In this document: positions 1-46,510 of the stretch, piece after piece
Position numbering within the stretch: the first letter of the stretch is position 1
Layout of the letters: every line of letters starts with the position of its first letter
Source of the DNA: Heloderma charlesbogerti
Taxonomy: Eukaryota > Chordata > Lepidosauria > Squamata > Helodermatidae
DNA length: 64,000 nt
Direction: 5' to 3'
NCBI GenBank assembly: GCA_026122225.1
Contig: JANEZZ010001408.1
Location: 170,613 to 234,612, forward strand
Translations under genes and position numbers: made by a program
Notes under the pieces: model-generated
Database searches by the model: none
What the model saw: the letters and a program-made list of their open reading frames with translations, nothing else
What the model was told of the DNA's origin: nothing

Positions 1-824
1 GGATTCTATGGCCAACCTTGGTGAAGATTTGAACGAGAGGTAGAGCTGCGTGTCATCTGCATACTGATGACACTGCACCCCAAACCTCCTGATGATAGCC
101 CCCAGCGGCTTCACGGAGATGTTAAATAGCATCAGGGAGAGGATGGAACCCTGTGGCACCCTACAAGTGATCGGCCATGGGTCCGAAACCTCCTCTCCCA
201 GCGCTACCCTCTGGTACCTGCCGGAGAAGAAGGACCGGAACCACTGCAATACAGTGTCTCCAATGCCCAACCCCTCCAGGCGGTCCAGGAGGATACCGTG
301 GTCAACGGTATCAAAAGCCGCTGAGAGGTCGAGGAAAACAAGGAAGGAGCATTCACCCCTATCCAGAGCCCTCCTCATATCATCTACCAAGGCGACCAAG
401 GCTGTTTCTGTCCCATGCCCAGGCCTGAAGCCTGACTGAAATGGATCTAGATAATCAGCTTCTTCCAAGTGTGCCTTCAACTGCATCGCCACCACCCGCT
501 CAATCACCTTGCCCAAAAAAGGCAGATTCGAGACTGGGCGAAAGTTGTTCAGAACTTGGGGATCCAAGGAGGGCTTCTTTAAGAGCGGTCTTATTGCTGC
601 CTCCTCGAGGGCTGATGGCATCACTCCCTCCTCAAGGGAGGCGTTCACCACCAAAGCTATAAAAGCTTTGGGAGTGGCCGCAATCCGGCACTATATAGCA
701 CAGCAGGGGGAGGTCTCAAGGGGGTCGTCCCTTCCTGGAGGGTTGAAGGAGCCCTATCAACAGTGGGGGTGCTGCTGCGGGGGGCTGCAAAGGGAGCAGG
801 ACTAGGCGAAAATTGCTACCACCA
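1..824 (-). mobile_element. L2-clade LINE, cut by window edge (left arm)
   Basis: Mirror of the first 0.8 kb of the element at 44775-46510. The minus strand encodes the N-terminal RT motifs. The remainder would lie left of base 1 if the palindrome continues. Confidence 0.85.
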
Positions 825-1009
825 ACCCACTTTCTGCCAGTGTGAGTGCTCTGAGTGGAATTTGGCTCAGTGATGCTCCCGCTGGCGGAGTAAGAACTCT
901 GGATCCAACCCGAGATGTGGAAAGTAATATGCAGACCTGGAGCTAAGTGGGGGAACTCAGCTGTCCACAGTGCTTTTAACCAGCTTAGGCTAGTGCGCCA
1001 GCTGCAGCC

Positions 1010-1500
1010 CTATCTGGAGATGGCGGGCCTTGCCTCACAGGTCTGTGCACTCATGACAACCATTGCTACAACATGCTGTATGTGGGGCTGCCATTAAAGA
1101 CAGTTCGGAATCTGCCACTGGTGTGGAATGTCACCATCCAAGTGCTGGTGGACACAAGGCGGTCAGTCATGTGATGCCGATACTGCACCAACTGCAATGG
1201 TTGCTGGTTCATTTCTGAATCTGAGCCCAGTTTAAAGTGCTGGTATAAACCTTTAAAGCCTTAAGAGTTGGGGCCAAGTGATCTGAAGAACTGCCTTCAC
1301 CTGTACCACCTTACCCACACCAATTTGCCCGCACTCTGAGGTTATCGGCCAAGGCTTTCTTTTCTGTCTGCCTCTCAGAACAATCAGACTGGTGGGGCTT
1401 TTTTGGTGGTGGCACCACGCTTATGGCTCATGATTTATTTTAATGTTTCTATTTGGGTGGTTTGAGTCTTACTGTTTGATTTGTACAAGGTATTAAGGGT
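1010..1500 (+). mobile_element. L2 3' fragment, left arm
   Basis: Degraded L2 C-terminal coding sequence (CTGTATGTGGGGCTGCC region onward) and 3' UTR. It is interrupted at 1501 by a small DNA element; its tail resumes at 1934-2050 with AAGCCACCTTGAGAGGG and AATAAATAA-like sequence. Confidence 0.7.
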
Positions 1501-1933
1501 GCAATCCTATCGAGACAGACGTCAGCCTCCGAACTTGGAGGCTGAGGCCTATCCAATGCAGGTCGGGCATAGCATGGAGGGGATCCTCTCCTCCATCCTC
1601 CAGCCGCCCTGCCTGTGCACCCACACAATCTCACACATCTAGCTGGGGCTTTGGAGGGGTGAGTGGGAACAGGGCTCGAGACCCCATAGGAAGCAACATA
1701 AAGGGGCTTCTGCAGTCCCCTCCCCTCCCCCAAGAACGCCCCCTTTTCACCCTCTCTGTACTCCATTTTACAAGCACAGAGAGGCAGCTGCAGTGGTTCT
1801 CCCCACACAGACTACGAGGGGGTGGGGGCAGGGAACACGGTTTCTTGTCTCTGAGCACTGTCTACAAGCTTGGAACCAGTAAACCAAAAAATCCTATGGC
1901 CCTCTAGACAGCGTTTAGCAGCCATAAGATTGC
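1501..1933 (-). mobile_element. Hairpin-rich non-autonomous DNA element A, left arm
   Basis: 433 bp with ends GCAATCCTAT and ATAAGATTGC forming short terminal inverted repeats. It is GC-rich inside AT-rich surroundings. It is related, in opposite orientation, to the 436-bp element at 9525-9960. It is inserted in an L2 3' UTR. Superfamily not recognised. Confidence 0.6.
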
Positions 1934-2054
1934 TCTCGAAGTCATTAACTGGATTTTAATTGTGTATTATTGATGTATTCATTTTGTAAGCCACCTTGAG
2001 AGGGCTCTTTTGCCCTATTGAGGCCTGTAAGAATCCATAAATAAATGTCTGAAA

Positions 2055-2769
2055 TGGCTGGGTTGAGTAAGGCAATTTCATTGCTCTCCAGTTCATTGTT
2101 GCTGATCATGGATTGATGGTATGCTATTGTGCTTCCCTTTCATTGGTTTTACTCCCCTTTTGACATGCATTTTATAGAAGGTTTTAAGAACATGTGCTTG
2201 GGAGATGGTTCTGGTATTATTTATTTATACTACTTATATATCTCTTGTAATCACCTGGGGAAAGCTGAGGGGACTCCAGTTACAGGTAGAAGGAAGTATA
2301 ATGTGAGGGACTGACATGCCAGATGAGGAGAAGAACTACTAGACATCTTATGCCTATTGCCTCTTCTGGTTTCTGTGGTTGCCTTACTAGCTTGTCCTCT
2401 GGTCTGCTTGTGCTGTGGTTAAATGCCAGGTTGGTCAGTAAGAAGGTCTCCTTCATCCATTATTTAATTGTGAATGAGAAGGTTGATCTGGTATAACTGT
2501 ATAACTGAGAAGTTGGGTTGGGAAGCTGAGGGTGGGGGGAGTTAGTCTCTTCTAGATATGCTGCTCTGGGTACTCAGTTCAGCACCAGAATCAATTAGAG
2601 GGTTGGGGAGGGGAAGTTACTGTGGTCTGTCAGAATTCCATCTCTCTCCTCAAGCCTTCCAGTACACTCATGTGCTAATACAGATTGGTTTTGGTTGTCT
2701 GGAACAGAGCAAGGATTCTCCTGGTGAATTCCACACACCACTGCCCATCAATCCCTGAGCCTTAGCTGA
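2055..2769. other. No recognised feature
   Basis: About 700 bp (mirror 42830-43544) in which I see no coding signal or recognisable repeat. It is 3' of gene 1 and may include its downstream flank. Confidence 0.5.
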
Positions 2770-2990
2770 CAGAGGTGGTCCTGGTCTTGGTGTTGAGGAC
2801 CAACATAAAGGGGGTTCTGGGGGACCTCAACATCCATGACAAAGCAGCCATGTCCAGGGCACCTCAGGACTTCATGACCACCACAAAAACCGTGGGGTTG
2901 TTCCAGCATGTGACTGGCCCAACAGAGGTAGCAGCAGGTCACACTCCAGAGTCATTTTTTCTCTATTGGACAGGAGGATACTAAAGCAAG
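2770..2990 (+). mobile_element. L2 endonuclease-end fragment, left arm
   Basis: The plus strand reads GDLNIHDKA, then a DFM...VGLFQHVTGPT pattern and GHTPESFF. This is the C-terminal end of an L2 apurinic endonuclease domain. Isolated fragment with no RT beside it. Confidence 0.75.
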
Positions 2991-3016
2991 AAGGAGCAAA
3001 CCAAACTGTATTGAAT

Positions 3017-3059
3017 CTAATGGAATGCTACTGCAGACATGGCTTGCAGCCACAAAGAA

Positions 3060-3095
<36 letters not shown>

Positions 3096-3220
3096 GTAGA
3101 ATGGACACAGAGAACAGCATACACAAACACACAAAAGAAAGCACAGGAACATACTAAGGCAACAAAGGGCAAACCAAACTGTACTGATGTAACCCAACAG
3201 AGCACTGTTGTGGACATAGC
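3017..3220 (-). CDS. Secretoglobin-like gene 1L, candidate exon 3
   Basis: Mirror of 42379-42582. It has the same missing stop after the cysteine codon and the same read-through into the tetranucleotide repeat, nine AGAC units on the plus strand at 3060-3095. The identical repeat number in both arms is notable because such tracts mutate fast. Confidence 0.48.
3060..3095. repeat. (AGAC)9 microsatellite, left arm
   Basis: Nine units, lying inside the read-through part of candidate exon 3 of gene 1L. Confidence 0.97.
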
Positions 3221-4390
3221 CTAAAAGAAACAAAGAGAGCTTAGCTATTTTTGATAGCTTCATATCCCCACTGGTGAAAAAAAGTAAAACATGAATAGAA
3301 TGGAATATACTGAACCAGTCAACAGATCTCACAATAAAAGTAAAACATGAAAACCCACTCATTTCCTATTTGTTTATTAAGAGAACAGTAAGTGAATTGA
3401 AAGAAGTATTTGGACATTCAAAATCTTGAAAACAGGATCATTTTTTAAAGTAATAAATGTTGAAGCAAATCATCTGATATATTTCTACAGGATGAAGATC
3501 AACACAAGGGAATCACATTCACAACCAATCAACAGCTTAAACGATCATCGTGGGTTCCTTAAAGCTCAAGAGGCACTAGTCCTTGTGCACACTTCAGCAG
3601 GATATTTTTCTGAAAGAGAGATTGCCAGTAAATAAGTATGAGTTGTACTGTATTAGTACATATGAGGCCTGGATAAAACATAGCTGTGAATAAACCTGTC
3701 ACATGTCACAGTGTGAACTCTGCATAGGTCACGTCTAGATTGGTCTAATCGTAGGAACCGTATGCACTTATGCAATGTCAGTGTGTGAGACGTTTCACCC
3801 TACACTACCACTCCACACCCTGACACACACACAGTGGTTCATGTAGGTGAATGTGACTTTTCTTCTCAGTGTTCATGTGCTAAGTGTAAAACTGCACACA
3901 TCTTTCCAACCCCAGAAAAAACATTCATATCCTTATATCGTAAGGACAGGACAACATGTGATCTTACAACATAGTGGATGTGATTCTATCACACAACTAT
4001 ATTACCTCAACCACGGTGAAGCCATGTGGCGGTGGTGTTTTTTCTAACACTGACCAAGTCCAGATCCAACCCATTGTTCTTGAGGTGGAGTGAGGAGATA
4101 CAGAGGTTCTAACCATGGTTTTTGCTCTTTTGTAGTTTATTCACACATGTATGCCACCACTTTATGCTGAAGTCATGAAGTGATAAGTAGGCATGTGTCA
4201 ATGAGCCCTCAGTGTTTGATGGTGGAACATTTGAAACGTGTTTCTGTGGTGTGAGGTGTTTGCTCTGTGATAGTTGCTCAGTCATACCGGTCCTTCCTTG
4301 GTGTGACGAATATGAATGGGCAAATTCACTCTTAGTTTGCCCCAACTCAGTAAATGCTCTTCACCCTCACCCAGCAAAAAGCACACTTAC

Positions 4391-4581
4391 AAACACTTTG
4401 GCATTCTCCAGTTGGACTGATATTGGGAGTCCAAGTACACATTGCTTCAAGTCAGATGTAGCTTGCTTCATTCTGAGTGTGGTTGCAAAAGGCTCAATCC
4501 CCTTCATGAAGTCATCATATGAGCCAACGAGGAATTTGGTGAGAAGTTCAATGAGAATAGGGCAGGAATCAGCAGGAGTAA
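4391..4581 (-). CDS. Secretoglobin-like gene 1L, exon 2
   Basis: Mirror of 41018-41208: same TTCCAG acceptor, 191-nt length, GTAAGT donor and both family cysteines. No difference between the two arms was seen in this exon. Intron 2 (3221-4390) contains no recognised gene; it is AT-rich unique-looking sequence. Confidence 0.8.
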
Positions 4582-4660
4582 CTGGAATGCAAATGTTTAG
4601 AATAGGGGGTCAGCATTTGCACATCCACATGCATAAAAGCCTTCACTAGAAACTCAGCCA

Positions 4661-5125
4661 GTGTTGGAACAACTTAGTCCATCCAGCCCCTGCCATGTGC
4701 CTTGCCTCCTGAATCTTGCCCTGTGATTGATGCTCTGTTTACTGACCTTCTGGACTGCCTAATGACCCTGCCTCTGGACTGTGTAATGTACCAGACTGAT
4801 TTACTGTGTTTGAGCTCTTGCTTGTTACCTTGACTACTCCTGCTGCGGCCTGATCCTCACTGCCTACCTGCCTGCCTGCGTTCTGACCTCTGCCTGGATT
4901 TTGACCACTCCTGCCTTAGCCGAAGCCTCCTTGGCCTGAAACCTGTGTGCTTGACCATTTGCTTGCCAACTTGACTATTCTATTGCATCACTCCCTGTAT
5001 TTGCTTACAAACAGCCAAGACTCAATCTAGAGCAGGGCAGTAGGTCAATAAACAGAGCATCAATCACAGGGCACAGTTCAGGAGATAAGGTACATGGCAG
5101 AGGCTGGATTGTTGTTCCAACACTG
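4661..5125. repeat. Element with ~95-bp inverted ends, left arm
   Basis: Starts TGTTGGAACAAC and ends GTTGTTCCAACA. The ends remain complementary for about 95 bp with mismatches, around a 280-bp middle. It lies in intron 1 of gene 1L just beyond exon 2. It could be a fold-back transposon or two facing LTR pieces; a polyadenylation-like AATAAA sits at 5048-5053. Confidence 0.6.
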
Positions 5126-5513
5126 GATGGGTTTCTGGTGTAGGCTCTTAAGCCCAAACCCAGCTGGACCCCACCCAGAGCTCAGCTGCAGCAATCAGAG
5201 CTGCTTTTCCAGAGCCTACTCCTGAGGAGTCCCTTTTTCCTAGGAAGACCTTTTCTGGATGCAAGCACCCCTTTCCACAGAATACCTACTAGCCTGTCAT
5301 TTGAGGCGATGACGCTCTCAGGGATCAGGGGGTGACTCAGCCTCTGCCTCAGAGGCAGAGTCCTTTTCTCCTGAGAGGAATGGCTCTGCAACCATTTCCT
5401 CTGAGTGTTCAGGCTCCTGTGGGTCTGGTGGCAGTCCCTGGTCTGGGGTACCCTGGGCTTCTGGGGCCTCTAGCTCCTCCTCTGAGGAGGACTCCTCCAG
5501 TCGGGGCATGACA
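5126..5513 (-). mobile_element. Possible solo LTR or LTR fragment with coding start, left arm
   Basis: On the minus strand it starts TGTCATGCCCC and opens a 63-codon frame (5509-5318) rich in Glu, Ser and Pro (LEESSSEEELEAPEAQG). This resembles the acidic stretch encoded at the start of the chromovirus LTR in this window, but the sequence differs. No internal region or second LTR is present. The outer limit is uncertain because it abuts the inverted-end element. Confidence 0.45.
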
Positions 5514-5613
5514 TAGAATCATAGAATCATAGTATAGTAGGGTTGGAAGGGGCCTAAAAGGCCATCGAGTCCAACCCCCTGCTCAGTGCAGGAATCCAAG
5601 TCAGAGCATCCCT
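5514..5613 (-). mobile_element. CR1 3' end, left arm
   Basis: The minus strand carries the conserved CR1 tail GGGGGTTGGACTCGATGGCC and ends in ATTCTATG octamers. Only the last 100 bp are present. Confidence 0.88.
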
Positions 5614-6017
5614 GAATATGCAAACCAAAGAGATGAAGGTGGGATCCAAGTATAAAACCAATAATAAATAAAAACAATAGTAGAAACACACATTAAAAAT
5701 AACATCCTGTATAAACAATTGAACATGACATACTTAACAGGGGTTCAGTCTCCCAAATTAAAAGCTCTCCTAATCGATACATCACTTGAGACATTTTGTT
5801 CAATGGCCACCTTTCAGAAACAATGGCCATGCCATGATCCAACAGAGTTATGGACATTGATTGAAATAGGGAAATTAAGCATATGCTTAATTTTCTCCAG
5901 TTGAAATCAGTGGGAAATTGCAGGCAAGTATCAAATCTAATTTTGGCTGAATTGTGCCCAATATGATTCCCCTGTGATATCAGCCAAGGAATCAGATACT
6001 TCAACAGTCACTCAAGA

Positions 6018-6150
6018 ACATAAGAAGAGCCATGTTGCATCAGATCAAGGGTCCATTGAGTCCAGCATTCCATTCACACAGTGGCCAACCAGCTGCCCAC
6101 CGGAAACCGACAAGGAGGACATGAGTGCAACAGCACCCTCTACTTGGGTT
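6018..6150 (-). repeat. Reptile interspersed repeat (GGTCCATT... type), left arm
   Basis: Contains the motif GTCCAGCATTCCATTCACAC and neighbouring GAACATAAGAAGAGCC. The same repeat occurs in the other orientation at 58851-58932. It is a common dispersed reptile sequence; I cannot assign the family with certainty. Mirror at 39449-39581. Confidence 0.6.
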
Positions 6151-6599
6151 TCCCAACAACCAGCATACAATCAGTTTCATGAGATGATCCTGTGTTCTAG
6201 TATTATGAGAGAGGGGAAAATATACCTCCTATCCACTTTCTCCACGCCATGCATAATTTTGTACACCTCTATCACATCTAGGGATGTCGCAAGTGCCTGG
6301 CTGGGTCTGGAAGCCCAGAGGTCTCCCCTCAGTCTTCCCCCGTGGGCCCCACTCACTGAGCCCCAGGGTTCAGAGAGTTGCTGGTGCCTGCCTCAAGCCT
6401 TCATGGGCTCCTTGCAAGAAAGGGAGAGAGCACAGTTGGTAGGTGACTCCTGCCCTCATGCCTGTCAAGCCTGCATGGTCTCCTTCTCTGGTTCTTCTTC
6501 CCTCCTTGCAAGCGGCAACAGGGACTCTGGCCGGCTCATGCAGCGGTCCAACTGCCTCCTTAAGCTGGTTTTTTGCTACTGATATATGTAGGTTCGCCT

Positions 6600-6802
6600 G
6601 GCACCTCCATGGTATTCCTTCCAGCACCAGTTGAAGACCTTTTTATTTTCCCAGGCATTTTAGCATTTTAGCTTCCTAGACTTTTAGCTTTGCTGTTTAA
6701 AATCTGTACTTTAAATCTCTGCATTGCTGCTAGGTTTTACTCTGGTTTTATTCTGGTTGTGTTGTTATATTGTGGTTTTAATGTTTTTATATTTTATATT
6801 GA
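6600..6802 (+). mobile_element. L2 3' UTR fragment, left arm
   Basis: A short L2 C-terminal coding remnant (GAAGACCTTTTTATTTTCCC) followed by the T-rich L2 tail. In intron 1 of gene 1L. Next to it, 6803-6875 carries a small repeat with CTGGGAGTTGTAGAAC, also seen at 62515-62580. Confidence 0.6.
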
Positions 6803-7050
6803 CTGGCTGGGGTATGCTGGGAGTTGTAGAACTTTTTTCTGTCTAAACATGCATAGAATTGCGTCCTTAGTGCTGGGCATGCCCTGGAGGATAACGACAT
6901 CATTTAAAGGGCCCACAAACTTTCGTGAGTGAGCAATCTCAATAGGTGGATAAAAGCTCTGTGTGAAGAAGGCATTTATATCCAGAGATGTAAGATTTTG
7001 CAGGGCTCCCAACCTGGGATTAAGCTCCAACCTGTAAGTTTGTAAAGGGT

Positions 7051-7089
7051 TATATATCCCAGAAAGGGAAACCCTTTCTGGGATATATA
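7051..7089. repeat. Perfect 18-bp hairpin, left arm
   Basis: Stem 7051-7068 (TATATATCCCAGAAAGGG) pairs perfectly with 7072-7089 around a 3-nt AAA loop. In intron 1 of gene 1L, 125 bp beyond the module edge. Confidence 0.95.
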
Positions 7090-7682
7090 GCCCCTTTTGT
7101 TTTGTCTTAGGTTTTGCTTCCACTGATGACGTATCAGTTTACATAATGATCTGAATGAATTTAAGAAATCAGTACATCAGTAACTAGCACTTACCTTCTC
7201 CTTGCACAGATGCATAACTCACTTGTCTGCTTAACTTTTTACCTTGATGCTTTGCCACTTAGGCTGAGATGCTTTGTCACAGGGGCTCCTCGTGCTTGGT
7301 GAGCGAAGCAAGCGGAACTTACTTGAGCAGTGCTTTGGATCCGAACCATAACGTGTAGCCCAGCCTTCCGCAACCTGGTGCCCTCTAGCAGTGTTGGACT
7401 GAAAAATCCCAGAATTCCCAGCCAACATGGCCATGCCCGGGTTGTGGAAGGCTGGTGTAGCTCATGAAATGACCTCTGTGCTATCTTCAGAAAGTTATTC
7501 CACACTGATTTGAGCAGCGTGGTACCTACAGTTTACAAATGTTAGGTGTTTAATAGAAAGGGTGTCTAGTACTATGCTGCCCACTTGTGGAACCCTTTTA
7601 TATGGAGGAGTGTACACTTCCCCAAATGGTCCGGTGAGTTCAGGAAGTATCATTTCTCTGAATAATGTGCTAAGCAACTCAC

Positions 7683-7737
7683 CTGAATAGCAGCAAATCA
7701 CCAGGGTGACTAGCAGAAGGCCAGTGGTCAGCTTCAT
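7683..7737 (-). CDS. Secretoglobin-like gene 1L, exon 1
   Basis: Minus-strand mirror of 37862-37916 with an identical signal-peptide sequence and donor site. Its TATA box is at 7811-7820. Exon 2 follows at 4581-4391 and candidate exon 3 at 3220-3017, so this arm has its own complete gene. If the palindrome is real, the genome carries two identical genes in divergent orientation about 30 kb apart. If it is an assembly fold-back, there is only one. Confidence 0.8.
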
Positions 7738-7999
7738 GGTGGAGGTGGTTGTCTACTGCGTACCAGATGGCAACAGGCAATGGACTTTCTTTGGAAACCA
7801 CGAACCAAACTTATATATGTGAGGCTGCTGGTTGTCTTCCACCCAATTGAGCCTATGCCAGTTTGCATAAATCCTTGAGAAATGTAATCCAAGCCATGTT
7901 TGCCCATGGAGTGGACCCCAAGAGGGGAACATGCAAATATGACTCGGTTCCTCTTTCCATGAGATTGGAGTGGTTCAAAGAATTTAGGCCCACTTGTTC
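7738..7999 (-). promoter_or_regulatory. Secretoglobin gene 1L promoter
   Basis: Mirror of 37600-37861, with TATA at 7811-7820 and the octamer-like site at 7931-7938 on the minus strand. No arm difference was seen. Confidence 0.62.
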
Positions 8000-8394
8000 C
8001 TGTTAAGCACAAACACAGGATAATGAGAAAAAATGTTGTTCATAAAAAGCAAATCATGTGTTTTCGGCTGAATTGATCCATACACTTCCCTTTTGCTGGC
8101 TGGTATCACAGAGACCTGGCTGGGTGAGACTGGGGGAGTAAATCTCTCCCAGTTTTGCTCACCTGGAGTCTTTTTGCTGCAGAAATACACAAATGTTCCC
8201 CTGTCCGACCTCTCACAATAAAACAGAAAGTTAATGCATAAGAAACCAGTAGATAGCAAAGAACTCCAATGTTAACATGAGTAAATATTATTGTTAAAAT
8301 GCTTAATAATTGCTTTTTGCCCGAAAGGGCCTCCAAGGCAATATGAAACCACAAAACTGTTTAATGAAACAGACCAAAACTACCTTTAAAACAA

Positions 8395-8760
8395 ACAGGA
8401 AAGCAAATTAATCCCATCTTAAAACCCATCAAAAGCCAAAGGGAGCAGAATAGTTACTGCAGCCTGCCTAAAGTTAGGCAGTCATGGGGCCAATATGAGG
8501 GAATACTCTCTTAGGGGGAGAATTCCACAGTTGGGTTGTTGACACAGAAAATGTCCTGTCCCGTGAACCAGCCAACCAAACCTCTCCTGTGGTGGGACAT
8601 TCAAGAGGGCCTCTGAAGAAAATCGTAGGTACAGTCAGGTTGTTGGGCAGGAGGCCATCTTAGTAGACAAAAGCAATCTGGCTGCCCACATTTTGCACCA
8701 GCTGCAGTTTCCAAACACCCTTCAAGGGCAGCCCCACATAGAGTACATTGGGAGATGGTT
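8395..8760 (-). mobile_element. L2 fragment, outer left module (with deletion)
   Basis: The minus strand shows degraded L2 C-terminal coding sequence (VWKLQLVQNV-like). It lacks about 124 bp near 8664 that the inner module retains at about 21190-21320. It lies head-to-head with the plus-strand L2 at 8995. Confidence 0.7.
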
Positions 8761-8994
8761 AACGCATTGATCATTGTGGCCAGATCCACCTTTGCCGGGA
8801 AGGGGCACAACTGGCACAGCAGTCAAAGGCACTCCTGGCCACAGCACCCACCTAAACCTCCAGGAGTAACGCCAGCTCCAGAAGCTGCATCCCTGATCCT
8901 TTAGAGGAAGTGGAGCCCCCACTCGGAGCAGGCTGTACCCCGGTCTTGGAACAGGAATACCGAGTCTCATGGTGTATATCCACAATCTGGATAT

Positions 8995-9524
8995 ACACCA
9001 TGATTACTGCAACGGCCACGGTGTGTGTGTGTGGGGGGGCTGCCCTTGAGGCTGGTCCGGAAGCTGGAGCTAGTGCAGAATGCAGCAGCTTGGCTGTTGT
9101 CAGGAGCTGCCCCTTTTCAGCATGTAACTCCTTTCCTGAGGGAACTGCACTGGCTGCCTATCCGCTACCGGGCCAGGCTTAAGGTATTAGTACTAGTGTA
9201 CAAAGCCCTAAACAACTTGGGACCGGTATACCTGAGAGAGTGCCTTCTTCCTTACCAACCTGCCTGGTCAATGAGGTCATTGGAGGGCTTGCTCCTGCTG
9301 CTTCCACATGGACCTATGGCCCGGTTGGAGTCCACCAGGAAGAGAGCCTTCAGTGTGGTGGCCCCCTCCCTGTGGAACTCCCTGCCTTTGGAGGTCAGGC
9401 AGGCGCCAACGTTGTGCTGCTTTTGGCGCCTCCTGGAGACGCTGTTATTCTGAGAGGCTTTGCCTGAGTGACCAGCCGCGGTTTATTATGTTCAGAATCT
9501 GTTCTTTTAAAATGTTGGGAGGGA
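8995..9524 (+). mobile_element. L2 C-terminal fragment, outer left module
   Basis: A 142-codon frame (9025-9453) gives the L2 C-terminal block: LVQNAAAWLLSG, ELHWLPIRYRARLKV, RAFSVVAPSLWNSLP. Its junction with the inverted L2 is a 13-bp hairpin, ATGGTGTATATCC against GGATATACACCAT (about 8969-9001). Arm difference at 9059 (Arg here, Gln in the mirror). Confidence 0.8.
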
Positions 9525-9960
9525 GCAATCCTATGGCCGCTAGTCAGCGACTAGACGGGCATAGGATATCTGGTTGTCCAGGAACCAACCTCAGAGCCCG
9601 TGCTCCGAGGTTGGTTCCTGGAGAACCGCCCCCCCTGCGCTGCCTCGCAAGCAGTGCAGAACAGCTCTGCACCCCATGTTCGGAAGAGGAGTGCGGAGCA
9701 GCCAAAACGGGGCATTCCGGGGGGCGTTCTGGGGTGGGGGAGGCGGAAATGCCGGTACGATACATCCTACGTGTTGTCCGGCAGCCTCCTCCCCTACTCC
9801 GCCTTCCTGCAGCTAGACAGCCGCAGTTGGCTGTCTAGCTGCAAATGCAGGGCAGGAGAAGCGCGGAGGGAATGATCCCCTCTGTGCTTCTCCTGCCGTG
9901 CGTTGGATAGGTGGTCACCTCTGAGTTTGGAGGCGGCCGCCTATCCCCATAGGATTGTGC
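9525..9960 (+). mobile_element. Hairpin-rich non-autonomous DNA element B, outer left
   Basis: 436 bp, ends GCAATCCTATGG and CCATAGGATTGTGC, inserted in the L2 3' UTR whose tail resumes at 9961-10065. Two strong internal hairpins: a 13-bp stem 9580-9592 with 9607-9619, and a 15-bp stem 9808-9822 with 9829-9843. CpG-rich. No coding capacity. Related to the element at 1501-1933. Confidence 0.7.
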
Positions 9961-15470: not shown

Positions 15471-15475
15471 AACAG

Positions 15476-36074: not shown

Positions 36075-36604
36075 TCCCTCCCAACATTTTAAAAGAACAG
36101 ATTCTGAACATAATAAACCGCGGCTGGTCACTCAGGCAAAGCCTCTCAGAATAACAGCGTCTCCAGGAGGCGCCAAAAGCAGCACAACGTTGGCGCCTGC
36201 CTGACCTCCAAAGGCAGGGAGTTCCACAGGGAGGGGGCCACCACACTGAAGGCTCTCTTCCTGGTGGACTCCAACCGGGCCATAGGTCCATGTGGAAGCA
36301 GCAGGAGCAAGCCCTCCAATGACCTCATTGACCAGGCAGGTTGGTAAGGAAGAAGGCACTCTCTCAGGTATACCGGTCCCAAGTTGTTTAGGGCTTTGTA
36401 CACTAGTACTAATACCTTAAGCCTGGCCCGGTAGCGGATAGGCAGCCAGTGCAGTTCCCTCAGGAAAGGAGTTACATGCTGAAAAGGGGCAGCTCCTGAC
36501 AACAGCCAAGCTGCTGCATTCTGCACTAGCTCCAGCTTCTGGACCAGCCTCAAGGGCAGCCCCCCCACACACACACACCGTGGCCGTTGCAGTAATCATG
36601 GTGT
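36075..36604 (-). mobile_element. L2 C-terminal fragment, outer right module
   Basis: Mirror of 8995-9524, with one substitution at 36540 changing Arg to Gln in the relic protein. Confidence 0.8.
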
Positions 36605-36838
36605 ATATCCAGATTGTGGATATACACCATGAGACTCGGTATTCCTGTTCCAAGACCGGGGTACAGCCTGCTCCGAGTGGGGGCTCCACTTCCTCTAAAG
36701 GATCAGGGATGCAGCTTCTGGAGCTGGCGTTACTCCTGGAGGTTTAGGTGGGTGCTGTGGCCAGGAGTGCCTTTGACTGCTGTGCCAGTTGTGCCCCTTC
36801 CCGGCAAAGGTGGATCTGGCCACAATGATCAATGCGTT

Positions 36839-37204
36839 AACCATCTCCCAATGTACTCTATGTGGGGCTGCCCTTGAAGGGTGTTTGGAAACTGCAGCTG
36901 GTGCAAAATGTGGGCAGCCAGATTGCTTTTGTCTACTAAGATGGCCTCCTGCCCAACAACCTGACTGTACCTACGATTTTCTTCAGAGGCCCTCTTGAAT
37001 GTCCCACCACAGGAGAGGTTTGGTTGGCTGGTTCACGGGACAGGACATTTTCTGTGTCAACAACCCAACTGTGGAATTCTCCCCCTAAGAGAGTATTCCC
37101 TCATATTGGCCCCATGACTGCCTAACTTTAGGCAGGCTGCAGTAACTATTCTGCTCCCTTTGGCTTTTGATGGGTTTTAAGATGGGATTAATTTGCTTTC
37201 CTGT
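36839..37204 (+). mobile_element. L2 fragment, outer right module (with deletion)
   Basis: Mirror of 8395-8760, same 124-bp deletion. Confidence 0.7.
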
Positions 37205-37599
37205 TTGTTTTAAAGGTAGTTTTGGTCTGTTTCATTAAACAGTTTTGTGGTTTCATATTGCCTTGGAGGCCCTTTCGGGCAAAAAGCAATTATTAAGCAT
37301 TTTAACAATAATATTTACTCATGTTAACATTGGAGTTCTTTGCTATCTACTGGTTTCTTATGCATTAACTTTCTGTTTTATTGTGAGAGGTCGGACAGGG
37401 GAACATTTGTGTATTTCTGCAGCAAAAAGACTCCAGGTGAGCAAAACTGGGAGAGATTTACTCCCCCAGTCTCACCCAGCCAGGTCTCTGTGATACCAGC
37501 CAGCAAAAGGGAAGTGTATGGATCAATTCAGCCGAAAACACATGATTTGCTTTTTATGAACAACATTTTTTCTCATTATCCTGTGTTTGTGCTTAACAG

Positions 37600-37861
37600 G
37601 AACAAGTGGGCCTAAATTCTTTGAACCACTCCAATCTCATGGAAAGAGGAACCGAGTCATATTTGCATGTTCCCCTCTTGGGGTCCACTCCATGGGCAAA
37701 CATGGCTTGGATTACATTTCTCAAGGATTTATGCAAACTGGCATAGGCTCAATTGGGTGGAAGACAACCAGCAGCCTCACATATATAAGTTTGGTTCGTG
37801 GTTTCCAAAGAAAGTCCATTGCCTGTTGCCATCTGGTACGCAGTAGACAACCACCTCCACC
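37600..37861 (+). promoter_or_regulatory. Secretoglobin gene 1R promoter
   Basis: TATA element ATATATAA within 37779-37788, about 75 bp before the ATG, placing transcription start near 37815. An octamer-like ATTTGCAT lies at 37661-37668. The block from the TATA box to the ATG is conserved in genes 2 and 3, which supports function. Mirror promoter: 7738-7999 on the minus strand. Confidence 0.65.
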
Positions 37862-37916
37862 ATGAAGCTGACCACTGGCCTTCTGCTAGTCACCCTGGTG
37901 ATTTGCTGCTATTCAG
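37862..37916 (+). CDS. Secretoglobin-like gene 1R, exon 1 (signal peptide)
   Basis: Exon 1 encodes a classic short signal peptide: start Met, Lys, a hydrophobic core LLLVTLVI, then CCYS. It ends TCA G before a consensus GTGAG donor (intron phase 1). Mammalian uteroglobin/secretoglobin genes have the same arrangement, with one exon for the signal peptide and a Met-Lys-Leu start. A TATA box lies at 37779-37788 and the ATG context is CCACCATG. Four near-identical copies exist in the window; this and its mirror are the only ones with exons 2 and 3 downstream in the same orientation. The product should be a small secreted dimer-forming helical protein. Ligand and tissue cannot be told from sequence. 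Confidence 0.82.
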
Positions 37917-38509
37917 GTGAGTTGCTTAGCACATTATTCAGAGAAATGATACTTCCTGAACTCACCGGACCATTTGGGGAAGTGTACACTCCTCCATATA
38001 AAAGGGTTCCACAAGTGGGCAGCATAGTACTAGACACCCTTTCTATTAAACACCTAACATTTGTAAACTGTAGGTACCACGCTGCTCAAATCAGTGTGGA
38101 ATAACTTTCTGAAGATAGCACAGAGGTCATTTCATGAGCTACACCAGCCTTCCACAACCCGGTCATGGCCATGTTGGCTGGGAATTCTGGGATTTTTCAG
38201 TCCAACACTGCTAGAGGGCACCAGGTTGCGGAAGGCTGGGCTACACGTTATGGTTCGGATCCAAAGCACTGCTCAAGTAAGTTCCGCTTGCTTCGCTCAC
38301 CAAGCACGAGGAGCCCCTGTGACAAAGCATCTCAGCCTAAGTGGCAAAGCATCAAGGTAAAAAGTTAAGCAGACAAGTGAGTTATGCATCTGTGCAAGGA
38401 GAAGGTAAGTGCTAGTTACTGATGTACTGATTTCTTAAATTCATTCAGATCATTATGTAAACTGATACGTCATCAGTGGAAGCAAAACCTAAGACAAAAC
38501 AAAAGGGGC

Positions 38510-38548
38510 TATATATCCCAGAAAGGGTTTCCCTTTCTGGGATATATA
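38510..38548. repeat. Perfect 18-bp hairpin, right arm
   Basis: Mirror of 7051-7089. Confidence 0.95.
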
Positions 38549-38796
38549 ACCCTTTACAAACTTACAGGTTGGAGCTTAATCCCAGGTTGGGAGCCCTGCA
38601 AAATCTTACATCTCTGGATATAAATGCCTTCTTCACACAGAGCTTTTATCCACCTATTGAGATTGCTCACTCACGAAAGTTTGTGGGCCCTTTAAATGAT
38701 GTCGTTATCCTCCAGGGCATGCCCAGCACTAAGGACGCAATTCTATGCATGTTTAGACAGAAAAAAGTTCTACAACTCCCAGCATACCCCAGCCAG

Positions 38797-38999
38797 TCAA
38801 TATAAAATATAAAAACATTAAAACCACAATATAACAACACAACCAGAATAAAACCAGAGTAAAACCTAGCAGCAATGCAGAGATTTAAAGTACAGATTTT
38901 AAACAGCAAAGCTAAAAGTCTAGGAAGCTAAAATGCTAAAATGCCTGGGAAAATAAAAAGGTCTTCAACTGGTGCTGGAAGGAATACCATGGAGGTGCC
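38797..38999 (-). mobile_element. L2 3' UTR fragment, right arm
   Basis: Mirror of 6600-6802. Confidence 0.6.
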
Positions 39000-39448
39000 A
39001 GGCGAACCTACATATATCAGTAGCAAAAAACCAGCTTAAGGAGGCAGTTGGACCGCTGCATGAGCCGGCCAGAGTCCCTGTTGCCGCTTGCAAGGAGGGA
39101 AGAAGAACCAGAGAAGGAGACCATGCAGGCTTGACAGGCATGAGGGCAGGAGTCACCTACCAACTGTGCTCTCTCCCTTTCTTGCAAGGAGCCCATGAAG
39201 GCTTGAGGCAGGCACCAGCAACTCTCTGAACCCTGGGGCTCAGTGAGTGGGGCCCACGGGGGAAGACTGAGGGGAGACCTCTGGGCTTCCAGACCCAGCC
39301 AGGCACTTGCGACATCCCTAGATGTGATAGAGGTGTACAAAATTATGCATGGCGTGGAGAAAGTGGATAGGAGGTATATTTTCCCCTCTCTCATAATACT
39401 AGAACACAGGATCATCTCATGAAACTGATTGTATGCTGGTTGTTGGGA

Positions 39449-39581
39449 AACCCAAGTAGAGGGTGCTGTTGCACTCATGTCCTCCTTGTCGGTTTCCGGT
39501 GGGCAGCTGGTTGGCCACTGTGTGAATGGAATGCTGGACTCAATGGACCCTTGATCTGATGCAACATGGCTCTTCTTATGT
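39449..39581 (+). repeat. Reptile interspersed repeat, right arm
   Basis: Mirror of 6018-6150. Confidence 0.6.
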
Positions 39582-39985
39582 TCTTGAGTGACTGTTGAAG
39601 TATCTGATTCCTTGGCTGATATCACAGGGGAATCATATTGGGCACAATTCAGCCAAAATTAGATTTGATACTTGCCTGCAATTTCCCACTGATTTCAACT
39701 GGAGAAAATTAAGCATATGCTTAATTTCCCTATTTCAATCAATGTCCATAACTCTGTTGGATCATGGCATGGCCATTGTTTCTGAAAGGTGGCCATTGAA
39801 CAAAATGTCTCAAGTGATGTATCGATTAGGAGAGCTTTTAATTTGGGAGACTGAACCCCTGTTAAGTATGTCATGTTCAATTGTTTATACAGGATGTTAT
39901 TTTTAATGTGTGTTTCTACTATTGTTTTTATTTATTATTGGTTTTATACTTGGATCCCACCTTCATCTCTTTGGTTTGCATATTC

Positions 39986-40085
39986 AGGGATGCTCTGACT
40001 TGGATTCCTGCACTGAGCAGGGGGTTGGACTCGATGGCCTTTTAGGCCCCTTCCAACCCTACTATACTATGATTCTATGATTCTA
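39986..40085 (+). mobile_element. CR1 3' end, right arm
   Basis: Mirror of 5514-5613. Confidence 0.88.
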
Positions 40086-40473
40086 TGTCATGCCCCGACT
40101 GGAGGAGTCCTCCTCAGAGGAGGAGCTAGAGGCCCCAGAAGCCCAGGGTACCCCAGACCAGGGACTGCCACCAGACCCACAGGAGCCTGAACACTCAGAG
40201 GAAATGGTTGCAGAGCCATTCCTCTCAGGAGAAAAGGACTCTGCCTCTGAGGCAGAGGCTGAGTCACCCCCTGATCCCTGAGAGCGTCATCGCCTCAAAT
40301 GACAGGCTAGTAGGTATTCTGTGGAAAGGGGTGCTTGCATCCAGAAAAGGTCTTCCTAGGAAAAAGGGACTCCTCAGGAGTAGGCTCTGGAAAAGCAGCT
40401 CTGATTGCTGCAGCTGAGCTCTGGGTGGGGTCCAGCTGGGTTTGGGCTTAAGAGCCTACACCAGAAACCCATC
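40086..40473 (+). mobile_element. Possible solo LTR or LTR fragment with coding start, right arm
   Basis: Mirror of 5126-5513; coding stretch at 40090-40281. It directly follows a CR1 3' end. Confidence 0.45.
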
Positions 40474-40938
40474 CAGTGTTGGAACAACAATCCAGCCTCT
40501 GCCATGTACCTTATCTCCTGAACTGTGCCCTGTGATTGATGCTCTGTTTATTGACCTACTGCCCTGCTCTAGATTGAGTCTTGGCTGTTTGTAAGCAAAT
40601 ACAGGGAGTGATGCAATAGAATAGTCAAGTTGGCAAGCAAATGGTCAAGCACACAGGTTTCAGGCCAAGGAGGCTTCGGCTAAGGCAGGAGTGGTCAAAA
40701 TCCAGGCAGAGGTCAGAACGCAGGCAGGCAGGTAGGCAGTGAGGATCAGGCCGCAGCAGGAGTAGTCAAGGTAACAAGCAAGAGCTCAAACACAGTAAAT
40801 CAGTCTGGTACATTACACAGTCCAGAGGCAGGGTCATTAGGCAGTCCAGAAGGTCAGTAAACAGAGCATCAATCACAGGGCAAGATTCAGGAGGCAAGGC
40901 ACATGGCAGGGGCTGGATGGACTAAGTTGTTCCAACAC
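40474..40938. repeat. Element with ~95-bp inverted ends, right arm
   Basis: Mirror of 4661-5125, in intron 1 of gene 1R. Confidence 0.6.
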
Positions 40939-41017
40939 TGGCTGAGTTTCTAGTGAAGGCTTTTATGCATGTGGATGTGCAAATGCTGACCCCCTATTCT
41001 AAACATTTGCATTCCAG

Positions 41018-41208
41018 TTACTCCTGCTGATTCCTGCCCTATTCTCATTGAACTTCTCACCAAATTCCTCGTTGGCTCATATGATGACTTCATGAAGGGG
41101 ATTGAGCCTTTTGCAACCACACTCAGAATGAAGCAAGCTACATCTGACTTGAAGCAATGTGTACTTGGACTCCCAATATCAGTCCAACTGGAGAATGCCA
41201 AAGTGTTT
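41018..41208 (+). CDS. Secretoglobin-like gene 1R, exon 2 (mature chain)
   Basis: A TTCCAG acceptor opens a 191-nt exon (2 nt plus 63 codons) that joins exon 1 in phase and ends at a GTAAGT donor in phase 0. This size is close to the second exon of known uteroglobin genes. The translation has the family pattern: an early Cys in DSCPILIELL, an amphipathic helical run with YDDFMKGIEPF, and a second Cys in DLKQCV. Spacing from that Cys to the expected C-terminal Cys in exon 3 is 23 residues, close to Fel d 1/uteroglobin-type chains. No stop or frameshift interrupts it. Intron 1 is 3.1 kb and filled with L2, CR1 and other repeats. The frame is too short and too split to stand out in an ORF scan. 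Confidence 0.82.
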
Positions 41209-42378
41209 GTAAGTGTGCTTTTTGCTGGGTGAGGGTGAAGAGCATTTACTGAGTTGGGGCAAACTAAGAGTGAATTTGCCCATTCATATTCGTCACACCA
41301 AGGAAGGACCGGTATGACTGAGCAACTATCACAGAGCAAACACCTCACACCACAGAAACACGTTTCAAATGTTCCACCATCAAACACTGAGGGCTCATTG
41401 ACACATGCCTACTTATCACTTCATGACTTCAGCATAAAGTGGTGGCATACATGTGTGAATAAACTACAAAAGAGCAAAAACCATGGTTAGAACCTCTGTA
41501 TCTCCTCACTCCACCTCAAGAACAATGGGTTGGATCTGGACTTGGTCAGTGTTAGAAAAAACACCACCGCCACATGGCTTCACCGTGGTTGAGGTAATAT
41601 AGTTGTGTGATAGAATCACATCCACTATGTTGTAAGATCACATGTTGTCCTGTCCTTACGATATAAGGATATGAATGTTTTTTCTGGGGTTGGAAAGATG
41701 TGTGCAGTTTTACACTTAGCACATGAACACTGAGAAGAAAAGTCACATTCACCTACATGAACCACTGTGTGTGTGTCAGGGTGTGGAGTGGTAGTGTAGG
41801 GTGAAACGTCTCACACACTGACATTGCATAAGTGCATACGGTTCCTACGATTAGACCAATCTAGACGTGACCTATGCAGAGTTCACACTGTGACATGTGA
41901 CAGGTTTATTCACAGCTATGTTTTATCCAGGCCTCATATGTACTAATACAGTACAACTCATACTTATTTACTGGCAATCTCTCTTTCAGAAAAATATCCT
42001 GCTGAAGTGTGCACAAGGACTAGTGCCTCTTGAGCTTTAAGGAACCCACGATGATCGTTTAAGCTGTTGATTGGTTGTGAATGTGATTCCCTTGTGTTGA
42101 TCTTCATCCTGTAGAAATATATCAGATGATTTGCTTCAACATTTATTACTTTAAAAAATGATCCTGTTTTCAAGATTTTGAATGTCCAAATACTTCTTTC
42201 AATTCACTTACTGTTCTCTTAATAAACAAATAGGAAATGAGTGGGTTTTCATGTTTTACTTTTATTGTGAGATCTGTTGACTGGTTCAGTATATTCCATT
42301 CTATTCATGTTTTACTTTTTTTCACCAGTGGGGATATGAAGCTATCAAAAATAGCTAAGCTCTCTTTGTTTCTTTTAG

Positions 42379-42503
42379 GCTATGTCCACAACAGTGCTCT
42401 GTTGGGTTACATCAGTACAGTTTGGTTTGCCCTTTGTTGCCTTAGTATGTTCCTGTGCTTTCTTTTGTGTGTTTGTGTATGCTGTTCTCTGTGTCCATTC
42501 TAC

Positions 42504-42539
<36 letters not shown>

Positions 42540-42582
42540 TTCTTTGTGGCTGCAAGCCATGTCTGCAGTAGCATTCCATTAG
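42379..42582 (+). CDS. Secretoglobin-like gene 1R, candidate exon 3 with read-through tail
   Basis: A strong polypyrimidine tract and TTTTAG acceptor precede GCT ATG TCC, which continues exon 2 in phase 0. The first eight residues, AMSTTVLC, supply the C-terminal cysteine at family spacing. Family members normally stop within a few codons of this Cys. Here TGG follows, and the frame runs on for about 60 codons through a nine-copy GTCT microsatellite (42504-42539, read as repeating VCLS) to a TAG at 42580. I infer loss of the original stop. Alternatively, the true exon 3 lies elsewhere. Exon assignment is by splice signals and cysteine spacing only. Confidence 0.5.
42504..42539. repeat. (GTCT)9 microsatellite, right arm
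   Basis: Nine units, the same number as its mirror at 3060-3095. Confidence 0.97.
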
Positions 42583-42608
42583 ATTCAATACAGTTTGGTT
42601 TGCTCCTT

Positions 42609-42829
42609 CTTGCTTTAGTATCCTCCTGTCCAATAGAGAAAAAATGACTCTGGAGTGTGACCTGCTGCTACCTCTGTTGGGCCAGTCACATGCTGGAACA
42701 ACCCCACGGTTTTTGTGGTGGTCATGAAGTCCTGAGGTGCCCTGGACATGGCTGCTTTGTCATGGATGTTGAGGTCCCCCAGAACCCCCTTTATGTTGGT
42801 CCTCAACACCAAGACCAGGACCACCTCTG
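42609..42829 (-). mobile_element. L2 endonuclease-end fragment, right arm
   Basis: Mirror of 2770-2990. It starts just beyond the candidate exon 3 of gene 1R. Confidence 0.75.
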
Positions 42830-43665
42830 TCAGCTAAGGCTCAGGGATTGATGGGCAGTGGTGTGTGGAATTCACCAGGAGAATCCTTGCTCTGTTCCAG
42901 ACAACCAAAACCAATCTGTATTAGCACATGAGTGTACTGGAAGGCTTGAGGAGAGAGATGGAATTCTGACAGACCACAGTAACTTCCCCTCCCCAACCCT
43001 CTAATTGATTCTGGTGCTGAACTGAGTACCCAGAGCAGCATATCTAGAAGAGACTAACTCCCCCCACCCTCAGCTTCCCAACCCAACTTCTCAGTTATAC
43101 AGTTATACCAGATCAACCTTCTCATTCACAATTAAATAATGGATGAAGGAGACCTTCTTACTGACCAACCTGGCATTTAACCACAGCACAAGCAGACCAG
43201 AGGACAAGCTAGTAAGGCAACCACAGAAACCAGAAGAGGCAATAGGCATAAGATGTCTAGTAGTTCTTCTCCTCATCTGGCATGTCAGTCCCTCACATTA
43301 TACTTCCTTCTACCTGTAACTGGAGTCCCCTCAGCTTTCCCCAGGTGATTACAAGAGATATATAAGTAGTATAAATAAATAATACCAGAACCATCTCCCA
43401 AGCACATGTTCTTAAAACCTTCTATAAAATGCATGTCAAAAGGGGAGTAAAACCAATGAAAGGGAAGCACAATAGCATACCATCAATCCATGATCAGCAA
43501 CAATGAACTGGAGAGCAATGAAATTGCCTTACTCAACCCAGCCATTTCAGACATTTATTTATGGATTCTTACAGGCCTCAATAGGGCAAAAGAGCCCTCT
43601 CAAGGTGGCTTACAAAATGAATACATCAATAATACACAATTAAAATCCAGTTAATGACTTCGAGA

Positions 43666-44098
43666 GCAATCTTATGGCTGCTAAACGCTGTCTAGAGGGC
43701 CATAGGATTTTTTGGTTTACTGGTTCCAAGCTTGTAGACAGTGCTCAGAGACAAGAAACCGTGTTCCCTGCCCCCACCCCCTCGTAGTCTGTGTGGGGAG
43801 AACCACTGCAGCTGCCTCTCTGTGCTTGTAAAATGGAGTACAGAGAGGGTGAAAAGGGGGCGTTCTTGGGGGAGGGGAGGGGACTGCAGAAGCCCCTTTA
43901 TGTTGCTTCCTATGGGGTCTCGAGCCCTGTTCCCACTCACCCCTCCAAAGCCCCAGCTAGATGTGTGAGATTGTGTGGGTGCACAGGCAGGGCGGCTGGA
44001 GGATGGAGGAGAGGATCCCCTCCATGCTATGCCCGACCTGCATTGGATAGGCCTCAGCCTCCAAGTTCGGAGGCTGACGTCTGTCTCGATAGGATTGC
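43666..44098 (+). mobile_element. Hairpin-rich non-autonomous DNA element A, right arm
   Basis: Mirror of 1501-1933. Confidence 0.6.
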
Positions 44099-44589
44099 AC
44101 CCTTAATACCTTGTACAAATCAAACAGTAAGACTCAAACCACCCAAATAGAAACATTAAAATAAATCATGAGCCATAAGCGTGGTGCCACCACCAAAAAA
44201 GCCCCACCAGTCTGATTGTTCTGAGAGGCAGACAGAAAAGAAAGCCTTGGCCGATAACCTCAGAGTGCGGGCAAATTGGTGTGGGTAAGGTGGTACAGGT
44301 GAAGGCAGTTCTTCAGATCACTTGGCCCCAACTCTTAAGGCTTTAAAGGTTTATACCAGCACTTTAAACTGGGCTCAGATTCAGAAATGAACCAGCAACC
44401 ATTGCAGTTGGTGCAGTATCGGCATCACATGACTGACCGCCTTGTGTCCACCAGCACTTGGATGGTGACATTCCACACCAGTGGCAGATTCCGAACTGTC
44501 TTTAATGGCAGCCCCACATACAGCATGTTGTAGCAATGGTTGTCATGAGTGCACAGACCTGTGAGGCAAGGCCCGCCATCTCCAGATAG
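44099..44589 (-). mobile_element. L2 3' fragment, right arm
   Basis: Mirror of 1010-1500; its tail lies at 43549-43665. Confidence 0.7.
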
Positions 44590-44774
44590 GGCTGCAGCTG
44601 GCGCACTAGCCTAAGCTGGTTAAAAGCACTGTGGACAGCTGAGTTCCCCCACTTAGCTCCAGGTCTGCATATTACTTTCCACATCTCGGGTTGGATCCAG
44701 AGTTCTTACTCCGCCAGCGGGAGCATCACTGAGCCAAATTCCACTCAGAGCACTCACACTGGCAGAAAGTGGGT

Positions 44775-46510
44775 TGGTGGTAGCAATTTTCGCCTAGTCC
44801 TGCTCCCTTTGCAGCCCCCCGCAGCAGCACCCCCACTGTTGATAGGGCTCCTTCAACCCTCCAGGAAGGGACGACCCCCTTGAGACCTCCCCCTGCTGTG
44901 CTATATAGTGCCGGATTGCGGCCACTCCCAAAGCTTTTATAGCTTTGGTGGTGAACGCCTCCCTTGAGGAGGGAGTGATGCCATCAGCCCTCGAGGAGGC
45001 AGCAATAAGACCGCTCTTAAAGAAGCCCTCCTTGGATCCCCAAGTTCTGAACAACTTTCGCCCAGTCTCGAATCTGCCTTTTTTGGGCAAGGTGATTGAG
45101 CGGGTGGTGGCGATGCAGTTGAAGGCACACTTGGAAGAAGCTGATTATCTAGATCCATTTCAGTCAGGCTTCAGGCCTGGGCATGGGACAGAAACAGCCT
45201 TGGTCGCCTTGGTAGATGATATGAGGAGGGCTCTGGATAGGGGTGAATGCTCCTTCCTTGTTTTCCTCGACCTCTCAGCGGCTTTTGATACCGTTGACCA
45301 CGGTATCCTCCTGGACCGCCTGGAGGGGTTGGGCATTGGAGACACTGTATTGCAGTGGTTCCGGTCCTTCTTCTCCGGCAGGTACCAGAGGGTAGCGCTG
45401 GGAGAGGAGGTTTCGGACCCATGGCCGATCACTTGTAGGGTGCCACAGGGTTCCATCCTCTCCCTGATGCTATTTAACATCTCCGTGAAGCCGCTGGGGG
45501 CTATCATCAGGAGGTTTGGGGTGCAGTGTCATCAGTATGCAGATGACACGCAGCTCTACCTCTCGTTCAAATCTTCACCAAGGTTGGCCATAGAATCCCT
45601 GTCCAAATGTCTGGAGACGGTGAGTGGCTGGATGGGGAGGAATAAGCTGAATATGAACCCTGACAAGACCGAGGTACTTTTGGTGGGAGACAAGAGGAAG
45701 TTTGAGGATGTTGACCTGGTGTTGAATGGGGTACGGTTACCCTTGAAAGACCAGGTCCGCAGCTTGGGGGTCATCTTAGACTCCCAGCTGTCCATGGAGG
45801 CTCAGGTGTCAGCTGTGAGCCGGACAGCACTGTACCAACTCCATCTGATACTGCGGCTGCACCCCTACCTTCCCGACCATCTGCTCCCATCGGTAGTACA
45901 TGCCCTGGTCTCCTCTCGTTTAGACTACTGTAATGCACTCTACGTGGGGTTACCCTTGAAGACGGTTTGGAAGCTGCAGCTGGTACAGAACGCGGCGGCT
46001 CACCTGATTAAAGGCGGCTGCTGGCAAGATCACATCACTCCAGTGCTGAAGGAGCTGCACTGGCTACCAGTTGTTTTCCGGGCCAAATTCAAGGTGTTGG
46101 TTTTGACCTTTAAAACCCTATAAGGTTCCGGCCCAGCCTATCTCAAGGAGCGCCTCCAGCAACACCAGATAGGCCGCTCAACAAGATCAGCCTCGGATGG
46201 CCTTCTCTCTGTCCCATCAGCCAGGACAGCTAGGCTGGTGAGGACGAGGGAGAGGGCCTTCTTTGTGGTGGTCCCCACTCTGTGGAACTCCCTCCCTAGG
46301 GAACTCCGCCATGCTCCCTCTTTAATGAGCTTCCGCCATGCATTAAAAACATGGTTGTTCAGGCAGGCATTAGGGGTGGGCTAGGGTAATTTTAGAAATG
46401 TGATGTTTTTAATGTTGAATTTTATTGTATAAACTGTTTTTATTGGTGTACATCGCCCAGAGTGGCTGCATGATTGGCCAGATGGGCGATTAATAAATTT
46501 AATTAATAAA
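44775..46510 (+). mobile_element. L2-clade LINE, RT portion and 3' tail
   Basis: A 392-codon frame (44945-46123) carries the reverse-transcriptase domain. It has FRPVSNLPFLGKVIERV near the start, LDLSAAFDTVDH, VPQGSIL, and the catalytic QYADDTQLYL. The usual L2 C-terminal motif LVQNAAAHL...ELHWLPV follows. A single TAA at 46121-46123 interrupts the C-terminal extension, which continues in the same frame for about 85 codons. The element ends in an AT-rich TAATAAAT tail at about 46500. It spans the outer limit of the visible palindrome; its mirror is cut by the window edge. The 5' part, including endonuclease, is missing. Confidence 0.88.

Follow-up and report, generated by a model that had tools for sequence, protein, structure and literature searches.

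Background

Palindromes of the human Y chromosome are reported to have arm identities above 99.9% (PMC3723533). Fold-back inversions in yeast were described as forming via short-loop hairpins with stems down to 4 bp (PMC7467729), and human inverted-duplication junctions carried 2-8 bp of inverted microhomology at the 13 junctions sequenced in that study (PMC3907307). In long-read data, fold-back reads made up approximately 0.55-0.6% of Oxford Nanopore Technologies (ONT) genomic reads, fewer than half of them with searchable sequence at the fold; such reads can tangle assembly graphs and were virtually absent in the PacBio HiFi set examined in the same report (PMC12870357). Inverted-repeat reads accounted for 0.18-7.33% in the ligation libraries of another report (PMC13141652), and false duplications that inflate gene families have been documented in vertebrate assemblies (PMC9516828). 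Here we describe a near-perfect palindrome with secretoglobin genes on its arms at the end of contig C1237 (JANEZZ010001408.1; 234,612 bp) in the assembly of Heloderma charlesbogerti (GCA_026122225.1; 2.30 Gb, 3,246 contigs), and compare it with a second contig of the same assembly, C747 (209,828 bp). The window comprises the final 64,000 nucleotides of C1237 (C1237:170613-234612); positions refer to the window unless a contig is named, and negative positions denote C1237 sequence to the left of the window, 60 kb of which was joined on for the analysis.

With long arms that are more than 99% identical and, here, with members of a gene family on them, the structure resembles the ampliconic palindromes described from mammalian sex chromosomes (PMC8981503, PMC3723533), but its right arm lies at a contig end without an outer flank and its axis is contradicted by C747. 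The fold-back inverted duplications reported in human and yeast likewise have an inverted copy that meets at a short core, possibly with a few bases of inverted microhomology (PMC3907307, PMC7467729); unlike these, the present structure is known from assembly sequence alone, and its terminal position in the contig explains the inverted copy. The features in common with reported long-read fold-back artefacts and false duplications are a near-perfect inverted copy with almost no sequence at its turning point, the unfolded form of the locus in another part of the data, and extra gene copies that are likely false (PMC12870357, PMC13141652, PMC9516828), whereas the documented fold-back artefacts differ in that the present structure is known at the assembly level only and in that its 41-kb return is long. 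In gene content, the locus is similar to the mouse Abp secretoglobin cluster with its <Abpbg-Abpa> modules, as several genes are present and two of them, b and a, point apart; however, the mouse modules pair two kinds of subunit, while genes a and b are near-identical at the promoter and exon 1 (PMC3669608).

C1237, if accepted as it stands, would enter four secretoglobin genes (a to d) a second time, with copies that are likely false and in two cases truncated, and would put a giant palindrome on record; in this gene family, copy number is often taken as adaptation. Inexpensive checks that need only sequence are whether an arm ends at a contig end, whether another contig passes through the axis, and whether truncated genes are completed there. 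The comparison also places C1237 next to C747 and brings out a smaller, real feature: two head-to-head secretoglobin genes whose promoters and first exons are near-identical.

Results and Discussion

An inverted copy that ends with the contig

Comparison of the window with itself by blastn gave a single inverted match, covering positions 1-45598 at 99.97% identity and far above chance, so that the near-perfect palindrome of at least 45.6 kb claimed in a preliminary description of this DNA is present in the sequence. The structure had also been said to extend past the window, which holds on the left, where it continues to -18399, and fails on the right, where the window edge is the end of C1237. 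The whole palindrome spans -18399 to 64000 (C1237:152213-234612), that is 82.4 kb, with arms of 41.2 kb that are 99.98% identical and meet at the axis 22799|22800 in a core of 5 bp.

This palindrome is likely, and with high confidence, an assembly error in which the last 41.2 kb of C1237 are a repetition in reverse that runs to the final base. The real content of the locus is then probably not a gene-bearing palindrome, and the second copies of the secretoglobin genes are probably false. The preliminary description had offered a fold-back or assembly artefact as its alternative, and it is this alternative that the data support, with an arm that ends at the contig end, a second contig that is unfolded at the axis, and genes a and d completed outside the palindrome's cuts.

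The right arm stops at the last base of the contig (C1237:234612), within a (TG)n repeat, and has no independent outer flank. At the mirror point on the left arm, the (TG)n repeat is longer and is followed by other sequence without a break. Gene d is broken off after exon 1 on the right arm, while the left arm continues from exon 1 to exon 2, located approximately 200 bases past the mirror of the contig end. A 1.4-kb query over the outer edge of the left arm had one full-length place among the 40 scored of 1,351 candidates; in the same-assembly search with this query, the contig end was matched by its last 100 bases only, and the other matches were partial and weaker. Because gene d is completed there and the edge has one full-length place, it was concluded that the left arm and its flank represent the intact locus and the right arm a copy that just stops.

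The unfolded locus on a second contig

The axis-proximal 7.6 kb of the palindrome (22794-30386) were matched at 99.93% identity by C747:200066-207656, which passes the axis point unfolded and runs into intron 1 of gene a and then to exon 2 of that gene. A 1.8-kb piece of spacer S, the segment between genes a and b, had three full-length places among the 40 scored of 9,954 candidates, and these were both arms and C747.

An unfolded axis in the same assembly largely refutes a fixed ampliconic palindrome, in which gene conversion from arm to arm would keep identity above 99.9% as on mammalian sex chromosomes. The arms of 41.2 kb, more than 99% identical, are like those of known ampliconic palindromes, and their length likewise fits. 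Such a palindrome, however, has two different outer flanks, of which C1237 has the left one only and the right arm none, and genes a and d are truncated solely by the fold and the contig end. We therefore consider a fixed palindrome scarcely credible for this locus.

The last approximately 2.2 kb of C747 (C747:207657-209828) are low-quality and C-rich, partly track spacer S, and look like an unpolished contig end in the public assembly. Four pieces of this tail align in S order over window positions 30389-31894 with identities of 71-85% and scores of 35-103 bits, all above the best score of a shuffled-tail control (29.7 bits, n=30); at E 0.1 against the whole window, only the best of the four pieces appears. 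A true junction in these 2.2 kb, which would have indicated a third copy, was considered and dropped on the strength of the order of the four pieces and the shuffles. A tail of this kind would be expected at a contig end that was assembled from noisy long reads, the probable sequencing technology, and left unpolished.

Differences between the arms

Only three differing sites had been counted between the arms in the preliminary description, but there are six in the window: three substitutions (left/right 20095/25503, 9059/36540 and 7436/38163) and three one-base indels within or next to C or G runs (21775/23823, 20813/24786 and 10185/35413). A seventh difference outside the 5-bp core is an indel in a TC repeat, with its left-arm site beyond the window (-12475/58074). 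Six of these seven are located in R1 and R2, two related repeats (R) that contain the promoters and first exons of genes b and a and occupy 6.85 of the 41.2 kb, while the approximately 34 kb outside R hold one microsatellite indel. So few differences outside R would be expected had both arms been polished with the same reads.

The three arm substitutions, two of which are at CpG sites, would also suit a join of haplotype 1 to a reversed haplotype 2 at a contig break, an artefact as well, with the arms as alleles. Alleles should spread over the arms, but all three substitutions are in R and none is in the approximately 34 kb outside it, and no consistent phase emerges from C747, which shares the right-arm state at 25503 and the left-arm state at the 23823 site. 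A join between haplotypes is thus very unlikely.

A probable fold-back read at a contig break

The probable origin of the assembly error is a contig break in the first intron of gene a, where a fold-back read would have turned the assembly path. Such a long read would contain first one strand and then its complement, and the assembler may then have walked back over its own locus until it reached the (TG)n repeat. The true order would be C1237:1-193411 followed by C747 from 200066 backwards. A fold-back at a contig break accounts for the copy at the contig end, the missing second flank and the unfolded C747, for genes a and d being cut by the fold and the contig end yet completed elsewhere, and for the identity of the arms, which breaks down solely in the ambiguous R repeats and at one microsatellite.

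The unfolded strand at the axis reads CTTACTGATGTACTG in C747. A blunt fold after CTTACTGA would yield CTTACTGA|TCAGTAAG, which is the observed core plus one base (folds were compared in left-arm orientation). A hairpin with stem TAC/GTA and loop TGAT, found by eye and not among the best eight computed folds, is also one base off the observed core when read from the right-arm side. The observed core does not decide between the two, because the hairpin model needs an extra base and the blunt fold has one too many.

The hairpin would be the starting point of a real fold-back event of recent date, an inverted duplication that spans at least 82 kb and is present on one haplotype of the sequenced animal, with C1237 as the folded and C747 as the unfolded haplotype; the DNA would have broken within the first intron of gene a, and the end would have folded on the short hairpin and been copied outward. 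If true, it would have doubled the secretoglobin cluster in one step from an intronic hairpin, and one assembly would contain both alleles. The unfolded strand does have a 3-bp inverted microhomology with a 4-nt loop at the axis, two of the substitutions between the arms are at CpG, and the three substitutions that separate C747 from the arms leave room for alleles. However, inverted microhomology of at least 3 bp with a 4- or 5-nt loop was found at 3.6% of positions, which makes it weak evidence for an event in the cell, and the extra base needed in the right-arm reading makes the core non-deciding. Furthermore, the right arm reaches the contig end without a second flank, the outer edge of the left arm has its one full-length place among the candidates scored, the arm differences are almost all inside R, and C747 stops inside S in poor sequence instead of continuing as a full second haplotype. 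We regard a heterozygous duplication as improbable. For the real ampliconic palindrome or recent inverted duplication suggested in the preliminary description, the evidence amounts to the short microhomology and a few substitutions and is weak.

A real fold-back with a 5-nt-loop hairpin and the right arm as parent was also considered, having first been suggested by the TGAT common to the core, in right-arm reading, and R1. This polarity was dropped, since the core can be explained by a blunt fold lacking one base and gene d makes the left arm the genuine one. That the R2 boundary falls exactly on the axis was rejected as a mechanistic clue, as the fold itself cuts the match between R2 and R1; in C747 this match runs approximately 350 bp past the axis point at lower identity and then fades.

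Several observations weigh against an assembly fold-back. The microhomology TAC/GTA is present in the unfolded strand (R1, C747) and could be used by a fold-back in the cell, and three of the arm differences are substitutions, two of them at CpG sites, as would hold for real mutations or alleles. C747 differs from both arms by three substitutions in 7.6 kb and may thus represent the second haplotype instead of the sequence adjoining C1237. Most of the poor tail of C747 did not align: of eight 300-base pieces, only two beat their own shuffles, so that an unrelated or chimeric end is possible for the rest. A return of 41.2 kb is long for a single fold-back read unless it was extended by other reads. 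Finally, none of six contig starts (6 kb each, from C1237, C747, C100, C1060, C2020 and C2820) had a terminal fold-back, which does not support a proneness to fold-backs; one of the six carries a 280-bp inverted match of 76% identity.

Secretoglobin genes

Exons were located by tblastn, in a first round with secretoglobin probes and in a second with the exons of the window itself. The joined exons 1 and 2 matched the Pfam Uteroglobin family (PF01099; gathering cut-off 24.8 bits) with 59.9 bits for gene b (E-value 3.2e-16), 42.5 for gene c (8.6e-11), 52.9 for gene a and 67.1 for gene d, and the matches of genes b and c bear out the secretoglobin identification made earlier. That each arm carries a secretoglobin gene, as had been stated, is correct but incomplete: in the window, both arms have the first two exons of gene b as well as an isolated exon 1 of gene a next to the axis, and on the right arm gene c (exons 1 and 2) and gene d (exon 1) are present too. 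The gene a exon is directed toward the axis and lacks its partner exon 2 within the window, as the fold falls in the first intron of this gene.

A secretoglobin gene consists of three exons, of which the first and last are short. Exon 1 comprises 55 coding bases here and exon 2 comprises 191 bases in genes b and c, with splice signals present; for exon 3, splice-site and homology scans gave no convincing candidate. A protein search with gene b gave no candidate with sufficient shared words in the database used, which may not cover such animals. Searches of the literature for lizard or squamate secretoglobins yielded nothing useful.

What the locus actually contains is probably a cluster of secretoglobin genes in the order <e <d <c <b a>, in which b and a would be head-to-head. 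Gene e is a further secretoglobin-like exon 1 (MKPTTVLLLVTLMLGCYS), represented by one match only on the minus strand of C1237 near 114343 (window -56269). The cluster likely extends further left to this gene.

Exon 2 of gene c (56652-56842) has Arg and Tyr at two aligned cysteines of genes a, b and d and has cysteines elsewhere, as judged by eye. Gene c may encode a decayed or changed subunit. Two local tandem arrays were observed in intron 1 of gene c, one with 117-bp units (52647-52918), which apparently have inverted repeats inside, and one with 89-bp units (53719-53962).

Table 1. Positions of the palindrome arms, repeats, secretoglobin exons and retrotransposon in the window
Feature	Position	Strand	Remarks
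Left arm	1..22799, continuing to -18399 (C1237:152213)	+	self-blastn 99.97-99.98%; seamless into flank with gene d exon 2; likely genuine copy
Right arm	22800..64000	+	mirror of left arm reaching last base of C1237; likely false
Axis core GATCA	22797..22801	.	5 bp, asymmetric; one base from blunt fold of unfolded strand at CTTACTGA
R1	7176..10541	+	spans promoter, exon 1 and first part of intron 1 of gene b; near-copy of R2, inverted and older
R2	19313..22799	-	spans promoter, exon 1 and first part of intron 1 of gene a; match to R1 cut at axis
R2 mirror	22800..26285	+	also unfolded in C747 (within 200066-203555)
R1 mirror	35057..38423	-	self-blastn
Gene b exon 1	left arm 7683..7737; mirror 37862..37916	left arm -; mirror +	tblastn
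Gene b exon 2	left arm 4391..4581; mirror 41018..41208	left arm -; mirror +	tblastn, PF01099
Gene a exon 1	left arm 22239..22293; mirror 23305..23359	left arm +; mirror -	exon 2 at C747:197409-197209
Gene c exon 1	mirror 48871..48925	+	left-arm copy at -3272
Gene c exon 2	mirror 56652..56842	+	PF01099
Gene d exon 1	mirror 59883..59937	+	severed from exon 2 by contig end; left-arm exon 1 at -14282, exon 2 at -18606
Ty3-type long terminal repeat (LTR) retrotransposon in spacer S, between genes a and b	30128..33777, mirror of 11821-15470	.	chromo, integrase and protease domains

Similarity of the gene a and gene b promoters

R1 and R2 differ by 29 substitutions in 3,361 aligned bases, one 126-bp indel and a few one-base indels. 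The 126 bp are located at 21190-21315 in R2 and have no counterpart in R1, which could reflect an insertion or a deletion. The differences between R1 and R2 are common to both arms, the arm differences aside, and the outer mirror is therefore younger than the inner inverted pair.

Between C747:199999-203555 and window 35057-38500, genes a and b are approximately 99% identical over approximately 3.5 kb that include the promoter, exon 1 and the early part of the intron. When the two genes were compared in 250-column pieces, identity was 96-100% across window positions 35.1-38.5 kb and approximately 75-80% around exon 2. This pattern fits a recent gene conversion of the promoters and first exons of genes a and b, with a partial duplication as the alternative. 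Within approximately 900 bases around exon 1 (7307-8213), no difference between R1 and R2 is fixed in both arms, and many are found at 9100-10020. The uneven divergence of R1 and R2 is consistent with a conversion tract or with constraint.

Retroelements

The two 530-bp LTRs of the Ty3-type element in spacer S differ at 11 of 530 sites. Repeats of long interspersed nuclear elements (LINE) and CR1-like repeats, suggestive of a squamate reptile, are also present.

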